Shown here: positions 50,401-55,493 of the stretch, in pieces
How the letters are laid out: every line of letters begins with the position of its first letter
Position numbering within the stretch: position 1 is the stretch's first letter
NCBI RefSeq assembly: GCF_030269305.1
Contig: NZ_BSTC01000002.1
Location: 372,001 to 436,000, forward strand
DNA: 64,000 bases
From: Kineosporia sp. NBRC 101731
Lineage (GTDB): Bacteria; Actinomycetota; Actinomycetes; Actinomycetales; Kineosporiaceae
Direction: 5' to 3'
Program-made: the position numbers and the translations under genes
The notes under the pieces: generated by a model
What the model was told of the DNA's origin: nothing
Databases searched by the model: none
What the model saw: the letters and a program-made list of their open reading frames with translations, nothing else

Positions 50401-51395
50401 TGCGCCGCGAGCGCCACCTGGTCGCCGAAGTCGAGCACCTCCTGCTCGCGCTTGCGGCGCTGGTACGCGTCGACCAGCGGGATCAGGGCGCGGCGGGCCT
50501 GCATGCGCTGCCCGATCGCCTTGACGTCGGCCTTCGGCTTGCCCGGCAGCGGGTCGCCCGGGTTCTTCGGCAGCTCACCGATGCGTTCCACGATGCTCTC
50601 GGCCACCGCGTCGATCCGGCCGGGATCGAGCAGATGCTCGGCGATCTCCCCGGCCAGCGCCAGCACGGCGTCGACCACGGTGCTGCGCGTGAGCTCGACG
50701 CCGGTCATGTCGCCGTCCCAGCGCTCCACCAGTTCGTCGACCAGTTGCCAGCTGCCGGCCTCACCGAGAAGCCTTGCCCCCGGCTCAATCCCGAGCCGCA
50801 GAGCGTGGTCGCCGAGCACCGCGGCGGCGTAGGCGTGATAAGTGGAGACCGTGACCGGCCGGGACTCCGGGGTGAGGCCCTTGCGGTGCAGGGCCCGCAG
50901 CCGGGCCCGGATGCGCTCGGCCAGCTCTCCGGCGGCCTTGCGGGTGAACGTCAGACCCAGCACCTCGTCGGGCTCGACCATGCCGTTGGCCACCAGCCAC
51001 ACCACCCGCGCGGCCATGGTTTCGGTCTTGCCCGACCCGGCGCCGGCCACGACCAGCATCGGCTCGAGCGGCGCCTCGATGACGGCCACCTGCTCGGGGG
51101 TGGGTTCGGGACGCTCGAGAACGCGGGCGATCTCGGACGCCGAGATCAACCGTCGCGGAGCGGTTCTGGCACTCCCGACCGGACGCCGGCCCGAGGGCGG
51201 AGGGGACTCCAGAACCGGGATGTCGAAGTCGAACCCGAGTTGCTCATCGGACGGAGCCGGCGACGACGGACGGGAGGACGAGATTGACCGGGAGGACGAG
51301 GGCGGCCCGGTCGGCTCAGTCGACTCCGTCGGCCTCTCCTCTGCCCCGTCATCCGGCTCTCCGGAACCGAACAGACCCTCCTGTTCGTCGTTCAC
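47451..51395 (-). CDS. adnB: AdnB-like UvrD-family helicase-nuclease
   Basis: A 1314-residue subunit of the mycobacterial-type AdnAB double-strand-break resection motor. Walker A is AGAGSGKT (117-124), Walker B DEYQDTS (354-360). QLLTVHGSKGLEWDVV is motif V, and RRLAYVAATRAKDSLLL motif VI. The C-terminal RecB-like nuclease has LRGRIDAVFR, GWDVVDWKTGR and VQLAVYRLAW. Long Pro/Ser/Asp linkers make it longer than the roughly 1100-residue mycobacterial protein. The GTG at 51395 overlaps the adnA stop (GTGA); upstream in-frame sequence belongs to adnA. The helicase is ATP-dependent and acts on DNA ends. Confidence 0.9.
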   Translation of the reverse strand: MNDEQEGLFGSGEPDDGAEERPTESTEPTGPPSSSRSISSSRPSSPAPSDEQLGFDFDIPVLESPPPSGRRPVGSARTAPRRLISASEIARVLERPEPTPEQVAVIEAPLEPMLVVAGAGSGKTETMAARVVWLVANGMVEPDEVLGLTFTRKAAGELAERIRARLRALHRKGLTPESRPVTVSTYHAYAAAVLGDHALRLGIEPGARLLGEAGSWQLVDELVERWDGDMTGVELTRSTVVDAVLALAGEIAEHLLDPGRIDAVAESIVERIGELPKNPGDPLPGKPKADVKAIGQRMQARRALIPLVDAYQRRKREQEVLDFGDQVALAAQLARTVPEVGEVERQRFRVVLLDEYQDTSHAQVVLLQELFGGGHPVIAVGDPHQSIYAWRGASAGNLQRFGLDFPAADGGRAATRHLSTSWRNDLAILAVANQLADPLRRTPIWGDPDLTVDVQPLTARPGAGPGRVRLEWHGTLEEEAKAIADIAQYAWLHPKDDGSRQSVAVLCRARAQFPLIEAALRGRDLPVEVIGLGGLLHVPEIADLRAALEVVHDPTRGDALMRLLTGPAWRIGPRDLDGLGAWSRELAASWRGENGRIDVPAGLTGVTLQVDVVDDQSIVDAVDALPEPGWEGPQGQQISAEGRRRLERLAGLLRGLRGRLALPLPDLVLEAERALLLDVEVAAQPNRSPAAARAHLDAFADVAAQFADGGDRPTLGTFLGWLTAAEDRERGLDTGVVEQHEDAIQLLTVHGSKGLEWDVVAVCGMVEGTFPAGQSGNAPKRSKGWLTDIGAVPFPLRGDAAGLPQWNYQAATTQDELETELKHFMDHCGEHEVAEERRLAYVAATRAKDSLLLTGAVWGDGKKPREPSRFLVEIRELLQQNPNGELPIAIGLWSDQPDEGAENPREIEGRMAIWPDPLEGRRETVEDGAELVRLAIEELTGERRAAYGTSRMVDADQGDRGAVDVDASGLGTAGIQVTEFGGAEVGWAPGEEWLPLDSWAPDDEFEPPPDDFVPFDARDAAAGAGSRVGDDARVDGGERPGGKRPGGKRGADGSSRSDGEPGALSAGEPVAPGPRAASRRASVLEPRTTEEAEWAREVEVLLAERDAQASGELTVRLPTHLSASRAVALAADRQALAERLRRPMPQQPSPHARRGSAFHAWLERRFGSAALVDIDDLPGAGDADLEDAKLETLQANFLASEWAERTAEAVEVNIETPVAGVVLRGRIDAVFRRPDGGWDVVDWKTGRPPGHEQMRALSVQLAVYRLAWSKLHRVPLDQVSAAFFYASTGRTVRPVDLWDEAALEELLTTIAVSP

Positions 51396-54300
51396 CGCCC
51401 GACCTGCCGGCCCTCGTTCTGCACGGGGCAGGCCCGGCGCAGGGCGCACACCCGGCACATGCTGTTGCTCTTGGCCGGGAACTGCCCGGCCGACATACCC
51501 TCGGCCGCCCCCTGCACGAGGTTCGAGGCCCACTGCGGATCAGTGTCTTTCGACAGCGGAAGCTGCTGCTGCACGGGCACGCTCTTGTTACCCGACCCCA
51601 GCTGCACCAGGGCCGCACCCCCCGATGCCGTGCCCTCGGGCAGTTTCAGCCCGGCCCGGGCGGCGGCCCGCGCCAGGCCGCCCTCCTCGATGGCCACCTG
51701 ATAGACCCCGAGCTGCGCGTGCCGCTCCACCTCGGCCTTGGTCGGCGCCGACTTCCCCGTCTTCAGGTCGATGACGACGAGCCGGCCCTCCGCGTCCTGC
51801 TCGAGCCGGTCGACCTTGCCGCGGATCAGCGCGCGGCCCACCTCGACCTGCAGGGTCTGCTCGGTGGCCACCAGTGTGCGCCCGGCCGCGCGGGCCTGCG
51901 CGGCGTACTGAGCCATGTGCGCGACCATCTTCTCCGCGCGCCGGCGCTCGGTGTCGGCCACCCAGCCCTGCCCGAGGCCGAGCCGGTCGAAGCGCTCCGC
52001 CAGCAGGGTCTTCAGCTTGACCAGGTTGCCGTCGGGCACTTCCTCGGCCAGCTCGTGCACCAGTTCGCCGAGCCCCTGGGCGGTGGACGACGTGCGCCGA
52101 CCGCCGGAGGCGTCGAGCAGCCAGCGCAGCGAGCAGCGGTCGAACGAGTCAACCTGCGACGGCGAGACCTTCACCAGCGCATGGGATTCCCGCAGCGGGG
52201 CGGAGACCGAGACCGGGGCCAGGCCGTACCAGTCCGCCGGGTCGGCCCCGGGCACACCGGCGAGCGCGAGCCGGGCCAGCTGGCGGGCAGCACCCTCCCG
52301 CCGGGACGTCTTCGCGAGCGGGTCGACGACCACGGCCCGCAGCTGTGCGACCAGAGCGGGCAGCGTCATCATGCGCGGCACCTCGGCCAGGGGCCGCACC
52401 TCCTGGTCGCCGCTGACCCCGTCCGGGTCGACCAGGTCGAGGAACGTCGAGGGCATGACCTCGTCGGAGCGCACCGCCGTGACCAGGAGGTGAGTGCGCG
52501 CCCGGCTCACCGCGACGTGGAAGAGCCGCAGCTCGTCGTCGTGGATCGCCTTGCGCTGGGCCACGAATCCCTGGTCGCCGCGACCGTCCACCACCTCGGC
52601 CAGACGCTGGCCGCCGAGCAGCGAGTCACGCAGCCGCAGGTCGGGCCAGGCCCCTTCCTGCACCCCGGCGACGGCGACGACGTCCCACTCCAGCCCCGCC
52701 GCCGCCGTCGCCGTGACCAGCGCGACCGCCTCGTCGGAGGGGGCCCGCTCGGCCAGGGTGTCGGCGGGTACGTCCTGGGCCTCGAGATGGTCGAGGAAGG
52801 CCTGCGCGTCGGCCCCCGGAAAGCGGTCGGTGAAGCGTGCCGCCGCCTCGAAAAGAGCCATCACAGCGTCTAGGTCGCGGTCGGCGCGAATACCGGCCGC
52901 GCCACCGGAGAGAGCGGCCCGGCGCCAGGAGATGGCCAGGCCGGTACGGTCCCAGATCTCCCAGAGCACGGTCTCCGGGCTGGCGTTCGGATCCGCAGCG
53001 GCTTCCCGCCCGGCGTTGAGCACCGAGGCGACGCGCCGGGCCGGGGCGGAAACCCGCGGGTCCAGGGCGGCCAGGAGCGACGGCTCGGCGAGGGCCTCGA
53101 CCAGCAGGGCGTCGCTGGCCCGACCGCCTCCACCGGAGATCTCCTCGGTGCGCAGGGCCTGGCGCAGCCTCCGCACAGCAATCGCGTCGGCGCCCCCGAT
53201 GGCGCTGGTGAGCAGGTCGGAGGCAACCTCGGGGGTGAGCTCCCAGGCCCGCAGCACGCAGCGCAGGGCCAGACGCAGCGGCACCACGGCGATCTCGTCA
53301 CGCACCGGAACCTCGGCCGTCGGGATCGCTACCGGCACACCGGCCGCACCCAGTGAACGACGCAGAGGCGCCGTGGCCTTCGTGGACCGCACGATCACGG
53401 CCATACGCTGCCAGGGCACCTGCTGCTCCAGGTGCAGACGCCGCAGGTACTGGGCGATGTACGCGCCCTCGCGGGCGGGCGAGGCAAAGACCTGGACTGC
53501 GACAGAGGCCGGCTCCGGAGCTGCGCTCGTGGTCACCAGGCGATGAGAAGCCTTGCCCGCCGCCCCGATCCGCTCGGCGATCCGGCCCGCGACCGCCCTC
53601 AGCTCCGGGCCGTGCCGGTAAACCGTGCCGAACGTGATGACCGGGGCGGACAAACCGTCGACCCGCCGGAACTGCTCCACCGCGTCGGCCAGCGCGGTCG
53701 GCCGGGCCCCCCGGAAGGTCTGGGTGGCCGAGTCCGGGTCGCCGGCCAGGAGGATGTCGCGCCCACCCCCCGCGATCAGCCGCAGCAGGTGCTCGGCGGC
53801 CACGGTGAGCTCGTGCGCGTCGTCCACCACCACCAGGCGGTACCGGTCGCGCTCGGCCCCGAGCAGTTCCTCGTCGTCGAGCAGCAGTTCGGTGGCGGCG
53901 TCGACGATGCCCGCCGGGTCGTAGGCGCCCGGGGACGACAACGCCGTGACGTCGAGATACTCGGCCATCACCTCGGCGGCGGCGAGCCAGTCGGGCCGGT
54001 CGTTCAGCTCGCCCAGCCGCCGCAGGTCGCCCGGCGTCAGACCGCGCTCGACCGCTCGCATCAGCAGGTCACGCAGTTCATCGCGAAACCCGCGCAGCTG
54101 CCGGATCTCATCACCGGTGGAGGTGGGCCAGACCGGCGCCCGGCCCAGCCCCTCGGCGTGCCCGGCGAGCAGGTCGGCCAGCATGCGGTCCTGCTCGGGG
54201 CCGGAGATCAGCCGCGGTGAGGGCGAACCATCGAGCGCCATCACCCGGTGCAGCAGCCCGAACGCATAGGAGTGCGGGGTGCGCGACATCGGCTCTTGCA

Positions 54301-54610
54301 CCGTGCCGCCGATGCGCGCCGACAGCCGCTCCCGCAGCCGCGCCGAGGCCACCCGGGTCGGGGCGATCGCCAGCACCGAGCCCGGCGACAACCCGTCGCG
54401 TTCCACCCGGGCCGCGACCGCCTCGATCAGCATGGTGGTCTTGCCCGTGCCCGGCGCCCCGAACACCACGACGGGCCCGCTGCCCTGCCGCAGCCCGGTC
54501 AGCGGGGCCTGAGACCGGTCCGGCTCGACGCGATCCCGACCGTGCACCCCGGGACCGACCAGCCGGACGGAGGGCCCGGCCGGACGACGCTCACGGGTAG
54601 CGGTGCTCAT
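51392..54610 (-). CDS. adnA: AdnA-like helicase-nuclease subunit
   Basis: A 1072-residue partner of AdnB. Walker A is GAPGTGKT (51-58); Walker B reads VVVDDAHE in place of DExQ. The RecB-like nuclease near the end has LIRGKVDRLEQ, VIDLKTGKSAP and AQLGVYQVAI. A cysteine in SFDRCSLRWLLD together with CRVCALRRACP near the C-terminus gives the four-Cys iron-sulfur arrangement known from AddB and AdnA. Gene order adnA-adnB followed by an alkyltransferase-like gene matches mycobacteria. A 54-bp palindrome lies 164 bp upstream of the ATG. Confidence 0.9.
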   Translation of the reverse strand: MSTATRERRPAGPSVRLVGPGVHGRDRVEPDRSQAPLTGLRQGSGPVVVFGAPGTGKTTMLIEAVAARVERDGLSPGSVLAIAPTRVASARLRERLSARIGGTVQEPMSRTPHSYAFGLLHRVMALDGSPSPRLISGPEQDRMLADLLAGHAEGLGRAPVWPTSTGDEIRQLRGFRDELRDLLMRAVERGLTPGDLRRLGELNDRPDWLAAAEVMAEYLDVTALSSPGAYDPAGIVDAATELLLDDEELLGAERDRYRLVVVDDAHELTVAAEHLLRLIAGGGRDILLAGDPDSATQTFRGARPTALADAVEQFRRVDGLSAPVITFGTVYRHGPELRAVAGRIAERIGAAGKASHRLVTTSAAPEPASVAVQVFASPAREGAYIAQYLRRLHLEQQVPWQRMAVIVRSTKATAPLRRSLGAAGVPVAIPTAEVPVRDEIAVVPLRLALRCVLRAWELTPEVASDLLTSAIGGADAIAVRRLRQALRTEEISGGGGRASDALLVEALAEPSLLAALDPRVSAPARRVASVLNAGREAAADPNASPETVLWEIWDRTGLAISWRRAALSGGAAGIRADRDLDAVMALFEAAARFTDRFPGADAQAFLDHLEAQDVPADTLAERAPSDEAVALVTATAAAGLEWDVVAVAGVQEGAWPDLRLRDSLLGGQRLAEVVDGRGDQGFVAQRKAIHDDELRLFHVAVSRARTHLLVTAVRSDEVMPSTFLDLVDPDGVSGDQEVRPLAEVPRMMTLPALVAQLRAVVVDPLAKTSRREGAARQLARLALAGVPGADPADWYGLAPVSVSAPLRESHALVKVSPSQVDSFDRCSLRWLLDASGGRRTSSTAQGLGELVHELAEEVPDGNLVKLKTLLAERFDRLGLGQGWVADTERRRAEKMVAHMAQYAAQARAAGRTLVATEQTLQVEVGRALIRGKVDRLEQDAEGRLVVIDLKTGKSAPTKAEVERHAQLGVYQVAIEEGGLARAAARAGLKLPEGTASGGAALVQLGSGNKSVPVQQQLPLSKDTDPQWASNLVQGAAEGMSAGQFPAKSNSMCRVCALRRACPVQNEGRQVGR

Positions 54611-54773
54611 GGCCCCACATCAGACCACAAGCCACCGACAAGTAGGACCGCGGCCGAACCAGCCCCTCCGGTCGATGTGACCGCCGTCGCCATTCCCCGG
54701 CAGTCACATCCGCGCGCCCCTCCTCACCGACCACACCCGGCGCTCCACACCTGCTCCCCCCGGGGGACCGAGA

Positions 54774-54827
54774 GCGATGTGTACACCTGGTACACCCGGT
54801 ACCGGGTGTACCAGGTGTACACATCGC
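54774..54827. repeat. 54-bp perfect palindrome
   Basis: The axis lies between 54800 and 54801. The left arm is GCGATGTGTACACC then TGGTACACCCGGT; the right arm is its exact reverse complement. Each arm has two GTACACC/GGTGTAC heptamers 9 bp apart (54781, 54790; 54805, 54814). GTGTACAC octamers lie near both ends. Confidence 0.97.
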
Positions 54828-54880
54828 GCACCGTTCCGTGCCCAGGCCCGGGATTCTCCGAGAATCACCACAACCACAAC

Positions 54881-55118: not shown

Positions 55119-55493
55119 TCAATTCTCGTCGTCATCGTCGGGAGACCAGCGCGCCCGGCGCATGTCCACCCGGTCGCCGCCCGGTCGCATCGGCGTGCCC
55201 TCCGACCGGTACTGCGCCAGCGCCCGGGCCTCGTGCCCGGAGGGTGGCATCCCGCCCGCCCGCAACACCCGCCACCAGGGCGCCAGACTGCCCCACTGGG
55301 ACATCACCTTGCCGACCTGGCGGGGACCGCCCCGCCCGATCAGCGCGGCCACGTCCCCATAGGTCAGCACCTGCCCCGGCGGGATGGCGTTCACCACATC
55401 CAGCACGTCGGCGACGAAGGTCTCGGCGGTGGAGGCGCTTTCATCTTCCGAATCATCAGTATCACCAGTCACGGGGTCCTGCGGAAATGGCAT
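55119..55493 (-). CDS. Alkyltransferase-like protein (ATL, MGMT family)
   Basis: A 124-residue protein with the DNA-binding half of O6-alkylguanine-DNA alkyltransferase. PPGQVLTYGDVAALIG and RQVGKVMSQWG form the helix-turn-helix with the Arg finger. The active site PCHR is PWWR here, so the alkyl-acceptor Cys is missing. ATL proteins bind O6-alkylguanine and recruit nucleotide excision repair. The acidic N-terminus (GDTDDSEDES) is disordered. GAGAGG lies 7 nt before the ATG on the minus strand. Confidence 0.88.
   Translation of the reverse strand: MPFPQDPVTGDTDDSEDESASTAETFVADVLDVVNAIPPGQVLTYGDVAALIGRGGPRQVGKVMSQWGSLAPWWRVLRAGGMPPSGHEARALAQYRSEGTPMRPGGDRVDMRRARWSPDDDDEN

Follow-up and report, generated by a model that had tools for sequence, protein, structure and literature searches.

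The 54-bp perfect palindrome at positions 54774–54827 of the window (the whole 64,000-nt stretch of Kineosporia DNA analysed here) is one of 41 near-identical copies dispersed between unrelated genes, not the private switch of adnA. It consists of two exact 27-bp arms with no spacer (GCGATGTGTACACCTGGTACACCCGGT and ACCGGGTGTACCAGGTGTACACATCGC), as the initial annotation had stated, and sits within a wider inverted repeat with 37-nt arms (89%). We put the chance of a 27-pair palindrome in 64 kb at order 1e-10 (from about 0.29 match per pair at the local base composition), which bears out its description as far beyond chance. The heptamers GTACACC and GGTGTAC, 9 bp apart, and the sequence GTGTACAC near each end are both present as first described. 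The annotation's four half-sites in dyad order captured the repeated dyad but were incomplete, as the array has five GTAC boxes, each exactly 9 bp from the next, starting at 54781, 54790, 54799, 54808, and 54817 (Table 1). The gap that holds the palindrome is 508 bp long and separates an alkyltransferase-like gene from adnA, whose start codon (54610) is 163 bp away from the palindrome. An assembly artefact, which had been named as the result that would remove the feature, is very unlikely because a near-identical array (L202, matching at 52/54) occupies the orthologous place in Kineosporia mesophila and the other 40 copies are spread over many contigs.

Table 1. Features around the palindrome, in window coordinates
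Feature	Coordinates	Strand	Details and basis
adnA, UvrD-type helicase and PD-(D/E)XK nuclease domains (neighbour only)	51392..54610	-	Domain matches
P1/PafBC-type promoter motif of adnA, outside the palindrome	54619..54641	-	TTGTCGGTG, 8 nt, TCTGAT
Border with weak asymmetric shared sequence in the family	54760..54773	.	Family-level signal, 33 own copies
Perfect palindrome, five-box array	54774..54827	.	GTAC-ACCTG-GTAC-ACCCG-GTAC-CGGGT-GTAC-CAGGT-GTAC, ends GCGATGT / ACATCGC; sequence; member of the 41-copy family
Left run, boxes 54781 and 54790, units directed centreward	54781..54793	+	Sequence; unit grammar over 80 loci
Central shared GTAC box (GGTACC)	54799..54802	.	Sequence
Right run, boxes 54808 and 54817, mirror-image units	54808..54820	-	Sequence; unit grammar over 80 loci
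Other border with weak asymmetric shared sequence in the family	54828..54841	.	Family-level signal, 33 own copies
Alkyltransferase-like gene (PF01035; neighbour only)	55119..55493	-	Pfam match

The copies share a simple grammar. GTAC recurs every 9 bp, usually in five boxes, forming two runs of 9-bp units that point at the centre; forward units carry spacers such as ACCTG or ATCCG, and the reverse run is made of their mirror images. The family consensus over 68 five-box copies of two species is GCGTTGTGTACACCTGGTACATCCGGTACCGGATGTACCAGGTGTACACAACGC. A forward-forward-reverse-reverse parse describes 32/41 loci of the window genome and 29/39 loci of K. mesophila JCM 16902 (G002); the remaining loci depart from the usual number of units in either direction, have an additional degenerate box on the outside, or are disturbed at the centre. 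Inspected by eye, L211 and L215 have their two runs shifted relative to each other at the centre, and the four-box arrays L046, L048, and L210 still fold into a hairpin whose loop is 5 nt long. The number of boxes differs within three orthologous pairs (L045/L210, L035/L214, and L047/L201). Beyond the palindrome, an asymmetric border signal extends for about 14 bp on each side (11.1 bits over 28 columns in 33 copies of the window genome, against a shuffled maximum of 3.4); over the same copies, the next 14 bp carry a marginal signal (4.0 vs. 3.6 bits), and none was found further out. The orientation of these borders showed no bias relative to transcription (10 same, 6 opposite, P = 0.45), and the border column counts of the family contained no GTAG tag.

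The window genome (G000; 8.26 Mb in 88 contigs) is from a Kineosporia close to K. mesophila. A 60-nt query gave 74 matches at 37 places, and further searches added four more (C13:18653, C13:118768, C6:69462, and C14:43519); two one-sided matches (L224 and L225) were excluded from the site count, and L046, L047, L048, L050, and L051 were omitted from part of the family copy analyses. By crude gene calls, 39 of the 41 sites are intergenic, and the other two (L032 and L220) overlap ORFs that we judged doubtful. The same crude caller placed 13 of the 40 sites with both neighbours called between convergent genes, 21 between tandem genes, and 6 between divergent genes. Among the 38 site gaps that this caller defined, convergent gaps were over-represented (Fisher P = 0.013) and divergent gaps under-represented (P = 0.015) relative to other gaps of 150 bp or more. 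At L016, L022, and L036, both divergent neighbours match Pfam families; K. mesophila retains two of these sites, L022 and L036. Median lengths of site-holding gaps were 424–508 bp by orientation, whereas the remaining gaps of those loci had medians of 74–144 bp. Array-holding gaps are 4–6 times longer than others, and their extra DNA is unconserved between species. At L024, a second long inverted repeat (CGTTCCTTGCTCCCGGAGC ... GCTCCGGGAGCAAGGAACG) was noticed by eye directly to the right of the array.

The genes beside the arrays have little in common. Among the top 25 of 131 Pfam families in 81 neighbour proteins, none occurred in more than three (GGDEF), and a one-by-one scan of 30 neighbour proteins gave 25 with a family match, of very diverse kinds. 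We rejected a functional regulon because the neighbour proteins fall in unrelated families. A search for long shared flanks among copies of the window genome found only weak, scattered matches. A site-free 960-kb stretch of contig C1, the contig that carries dnaA (C1:251577), had raised the suspicion of an origin or terminus domain. We mapped the loci on the single-contig genome G004, a stand-in for the order of the window genome that relies on shared gene order, and placed 28 of the 37 queried loci at 101 bits or more (hits below 101 bits were dropped). Their positions were uniform by a KS test (P = 0.71), in distance from dnaA (P = 0.95), and by the size of the largest gap (P = 0.67), and the domain was rejected.

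In K. mesophila, an array stands at the same place for 26 of the 41 sites, or 26 of the 37 assessable ones (L020, L025, L026, and L046 were not assessable, and L047/L201 corresponds on one flank only); the orthologous stretches of the other 11 sites hold no array. We compared 22 orthologous pairs, omitting L035, L045, L047, and L050 for their differing box numbers or four-box arrays. The 54 bp were identical at 1152/1188 positions (97.0%), against 577/880 (65.6%) in the 20 bp flanking either end and 91.6% in long aligned blocks consisting mostly of genes. The next 20 bp outward agreed at 387/880 positions without gaps. In a gapped alignment of the flanks, 81.6% of the paired letters were identical, but gap letters outnumbered paired letters (1.12 to 1), and we preferred the ungapped counts. 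The right flank of L027/L192 is identical at 20/20 and 17/20 positions, unlike the other pairs. The contrast between arrays and adjacent 20 bp shows that the 54-bp array is under selection, and the locus-specific variants common to orthologs (for example, L222/L209 and L036/L200) are evidence against homogenisation between copies.

The arms were compared in two ways. Across the 68 five-box copies, 64 double changes were compensated, 78 changes were one-sided, and 7 were uncompensated; shuffling gave a mean of 11.4 and a maximum of 20 compensated changes, a contrast that is a description and not a probability because the copies are related. Within the 22 orthologous pairs, 28 base pairs had changed on one side only and 4 on both sides, 3 of these being compensated (L018/L190, L220/L188, and L221/L182), which suggests that exact pairing is not strictly enforced.

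At six sites present only in the window genome, we compared the junctions with the corresponding K. mesophila stretches (K. mesophila/window genome: 5/398 bp at L044, 4/212 bp at L048, 74/427 bp at L051, 24/272 bp at L034, 57/170 bp at L019, and about 317/447 bp at L029). No target duplication was seen at these six junctions, which may reflect either gain in one species or loss in the other. By eye, terminator-like GC-rich hairpins stand at or beside two of the array-free K. mesophila places (L019 3963-4134/L260 and L034 3910-4183/L263). The K. mesophila assembly breaks (at the end of C60 and the start of C15, which hold the orthologs of the L020 flanks) near a perfect array of the window genome, and short-read assemblies may undercount such arrays.

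A 62-nt query against 13 genomes of the family Kineosporiaceae gave 80 matches in the window genome, 74 in K. mesophila, 18 in K. babensis JCM 31032 (G005), and 2 in K. rhizophila JCM 9960 (G001), at roughly two per site, and no match in the other nine. Among 394 genomes of the class, a sample with no other Kineosporia, the window genome gave 38 hits and three other genomes one hit each with three mismatches, apparently by eye in one coding sequence. The exact pattern had no match in IMG/VR, and, at an E-value cutoff of 0.1, the 54-mer had none in collections of plasmids and phages, on which grounds a plasmid, phage, or viral origin was rejected. Rfam returned three microRNA-family matches far below gathering scores, which we attributed to chance resemblance to a perfect hairpin. 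Searches of the open-library literature found no such repeat described for Kineosporia and, for dispersed palindromic repeats in actinobacteria, nothing relevant among the matches listed; two stretches of the palindrome sequence occur in unrelated literature.

A looser pattern of four GTAC boxes spaced by 9 bp, with at most two mismatches, exceeded its reversed control in K. babensis (56 vs. 12 matches) and K. rhizophila (34 vs. 13) and stayed below it in two further Kineosporia genomes (G003, 13 vs. 18; G004, 8 vs. 15). In G003, we noted a single clear palindromic array (C6:179268-179316) with GTAC boxes in 9-bp register, centred on GTGTACAC and not on GGTACC. In K. babensis, 21/25 loci can be aligned as a four-box array that begins and ends with GTAC (consensus TYGT-GTACAC(M)TG-GYACC...GTAC-TCGAT-GTAC-RCATT). 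Among 24 loci scored there for pairing (L245 was not centred), one is a perfect palindrome (L216, 22/22 pairs), four reach 17–18/22, and the rest reach 10–16 at the best centre. Mean RNA folding energy was −18.3 kcal/mol for the K. babensis arrays, against −12.9 for shuffled letters, whereas 36 copies of the window genome fold at about −46 kcal/mol, and at about −47 when taken at the length of the K. babensis arrays. Because the boxes are kept with weak pairing, the GTAC boxes, and not full pairing, are the feature common to K. babensis and the window genome. A blastn search with the 24 K. babensis loci found no gap shared with window-genome sites; two arrays (L231 and L239) lie a few kilobases from L222 and L050 in different gaps, and one (L280) was placed in the L022 gap.

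The usual explanation for palindromes dispersed through a bacterial genome is that they are mobile repeats or terminators. The explanation we tentatively prefer, at somewhat short of an even chance, is that the arrays are binding sites for a putative DNA-binding protein that oligomerises and acts at the level of the chromosome. Selection on the arrays, indifference to neighbours and orientation, the 9-bp grammar, and survival in K. babensis without full pairing together favour a protein-DNA site. Sequence comparison shows the grammar, the dispersion, the conservation far above the flanks, the independence of neighbour function and orientation, and the gain or loss of whole sites. The two opposed runs of 9-bp units (GTAC plus 5 bp) would form a Kineosporia-specific dispersed DNA site, and a putative small protein would load on both runs at about one protomer per 9 bp. 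Such loading would build a symmetric nucleoprotein complex acting on the scale of the chromosome, through architecture, marking, or insulation in long intergenic gaps, and not as a single-gene operator. We infer the protein, its stoichiometry, and its cellular role.

Several observations agree with binding by such a protein: array identity above that of both flanks and gene-dominated alignments; a fixed GTAC register with variable box number; a grammar above control in K. babensis and K. rhizophila, where most arrays are non-palindromic; the predominance of one-sided over compensated ortholog changes; and the occurrence of sites in all orientations, beside unrelated families, and evenly along G004. 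A precedent is BldC of Streptomyces, which is reported to bind (PMC5859096) as one protomer per 9 bp to a varying number of repeats; the 9-bp step, the variable repeat number, and the actinobacterial setting are all alike. However, the BldC consensus given there, AATTXXXX(C), forms direct AT-rich repeats, unlike two opposed runs of GTAC boxes. Arm covariation also fits a hairpin, the asymmetric shared borders also fit a copied mobile unit, and the long unconserved gaps around the arrays are not accounted for by protein binding. Two other systems invite comparison. SlmA-binding sites are likewise dispersed palindromes for a chromosome-acting protein, which is putative for the arrays; yet those sites are described as denser near the origin (PMC4117426), whereas the arrays are much longer and showed no SlmA- or MatP-type origin or terminus bias on G004. 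Cyanobacterial HIP1 (PMC4390886) is also a lineage-wide repeated palindrome but is 8 bp long and very frequent, unlike an intergenic 54-bp array in 41 copies.

A REP-like miniature repeat, with a unit of about 82–110 bp (the palindrome and its asymmetric borders) spread by copying through a putative mobiliser, is possible but doubtful. Paralogs that are nearly identical and have borders in common imply some route of copying, and copying itself is likely. The near-identical, almost wholly intergenic copies, their common borders, the 11 array-free orthologous places, and the bias towards convergent and against divergent gaps all suit such a repeat. REP elements are likewise short, dispersed intergenic palindromes, tagged with GTAG/CGTC and associated with TnpA_REP/RAYT (PMC8266576 and PMC3733652). 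They are 20–50 nt long and often number in the hundreds, unlike this 54-bp family, and carry one terminal GTAG (PMC8266576) where the arrays repeat GTAC boxes. Moreover, a RAYT or Y1_Tnp gene (PF01797) was found in only one of six Kineosporia genomes, that of K. babensis; we rejected a RAYT/REP system because the two array-rich genomes have no Y1 transposase. Conservation at orthologous places while the adjacent DNA diverges is unlike decaying inserts, the six junctions inspected hold no target duplication, and a REP-like repeat as the whole explanation leaves the conservation unexplained.

An RNA hairpin, serving as a two-way transcription terminator, insulator, or RNA-stability element, is improbable. 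The strong folds of the window-genome copies, the covariation of their arms, the excess of convergent gaps, and the hairpins retained by some four-box arrays all speak for it. Against it, K. babensis keeps the boxes with a weak fold and one-sided ortholog changes far outnumber compensated ones. An intrinsic terminator would lie downstream of a gene every time, whereas 6/40 sites by the crude caller lie between divergent genes, three of them with Pfam-supported neighbours.

For the copy in the window, the initial annotation had suggested, as one possibility, a high-affinity operator upstream of adnAB, of which a protein-binding site is plausible but a specific tie to adnAB is not, given 41 copies beside unrelated genes. 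A genome-wide search, which it had suggested for the heptamer pair, returned those copies, against an adnA-specific function; absence from relatives, which it thought would weaken a functional role, was found for the site at adnA and not for the family, most of which is kept in K. mesophila. The order of adnA and the alkyltransferase-like gene is kept in G001, G003, G004, and G005, and in all four no array lies between them. By contrast, TTGTCGGTG stands 30–31 nt upstream of the adnA start in 6/6 Kineosporia genomes. PMC5656591 gives the LexA/RecA-independent P1 consensus as tTGTCRgtg - 8 nt - TannnT and links it to PafBC in Mycobacterium smegmatis; the first half of the adnA motif fits this consensus, and the −10 half (TCTGAT or TCTCAT) does so only partly. 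By itself, TTGTC[AG]GTG has four matches in the window; with the spaced T's it has one. The presence of the motif in all six genomes shows that adnA has a conserved promoter signal of its own, to which the palindrome is not tied in spacing (132 bp in the window genome vs. 443 bp in K. mesophila, by subtraction). Although dyad half-sites lie upstream of adnA and both flanking genes look like DNA-repair genes, we rejected the adnA operator, and consider an operator of adnAB or of a local regulon very improbable, given the missing array in four of four relatives, the fixed motif at shifting distance, the 13/40 convergent family sites, and the functionally diverse neighbours. Given the arm covariation in the two palindrome-rich species, the palindrome may still have a hairpin or cruciform role.

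Returning to the chromosome-level binding sites, a bolder form, which we regard as rather unlikely as a whole, is a new class of chromosome-wide nucleoprotein site, in which converging head-to-tail 9-bp GTAC runs would be loaded from both ends by a filament-forming protein, selected at arbitrary intergenic places, and copied within one genus. The perfect palindrome would then be a by-product, because two identical runs face each other. A family that, between two species, outdoes long alignments of the surrounding genes in identity, whose grammar persists in a relative that mostly lacks the palindrome, and whose copies adjoin unrelated genes in all orientations would, if this is true, represent an undescribed chromosome-acting system in these actinobacteria.
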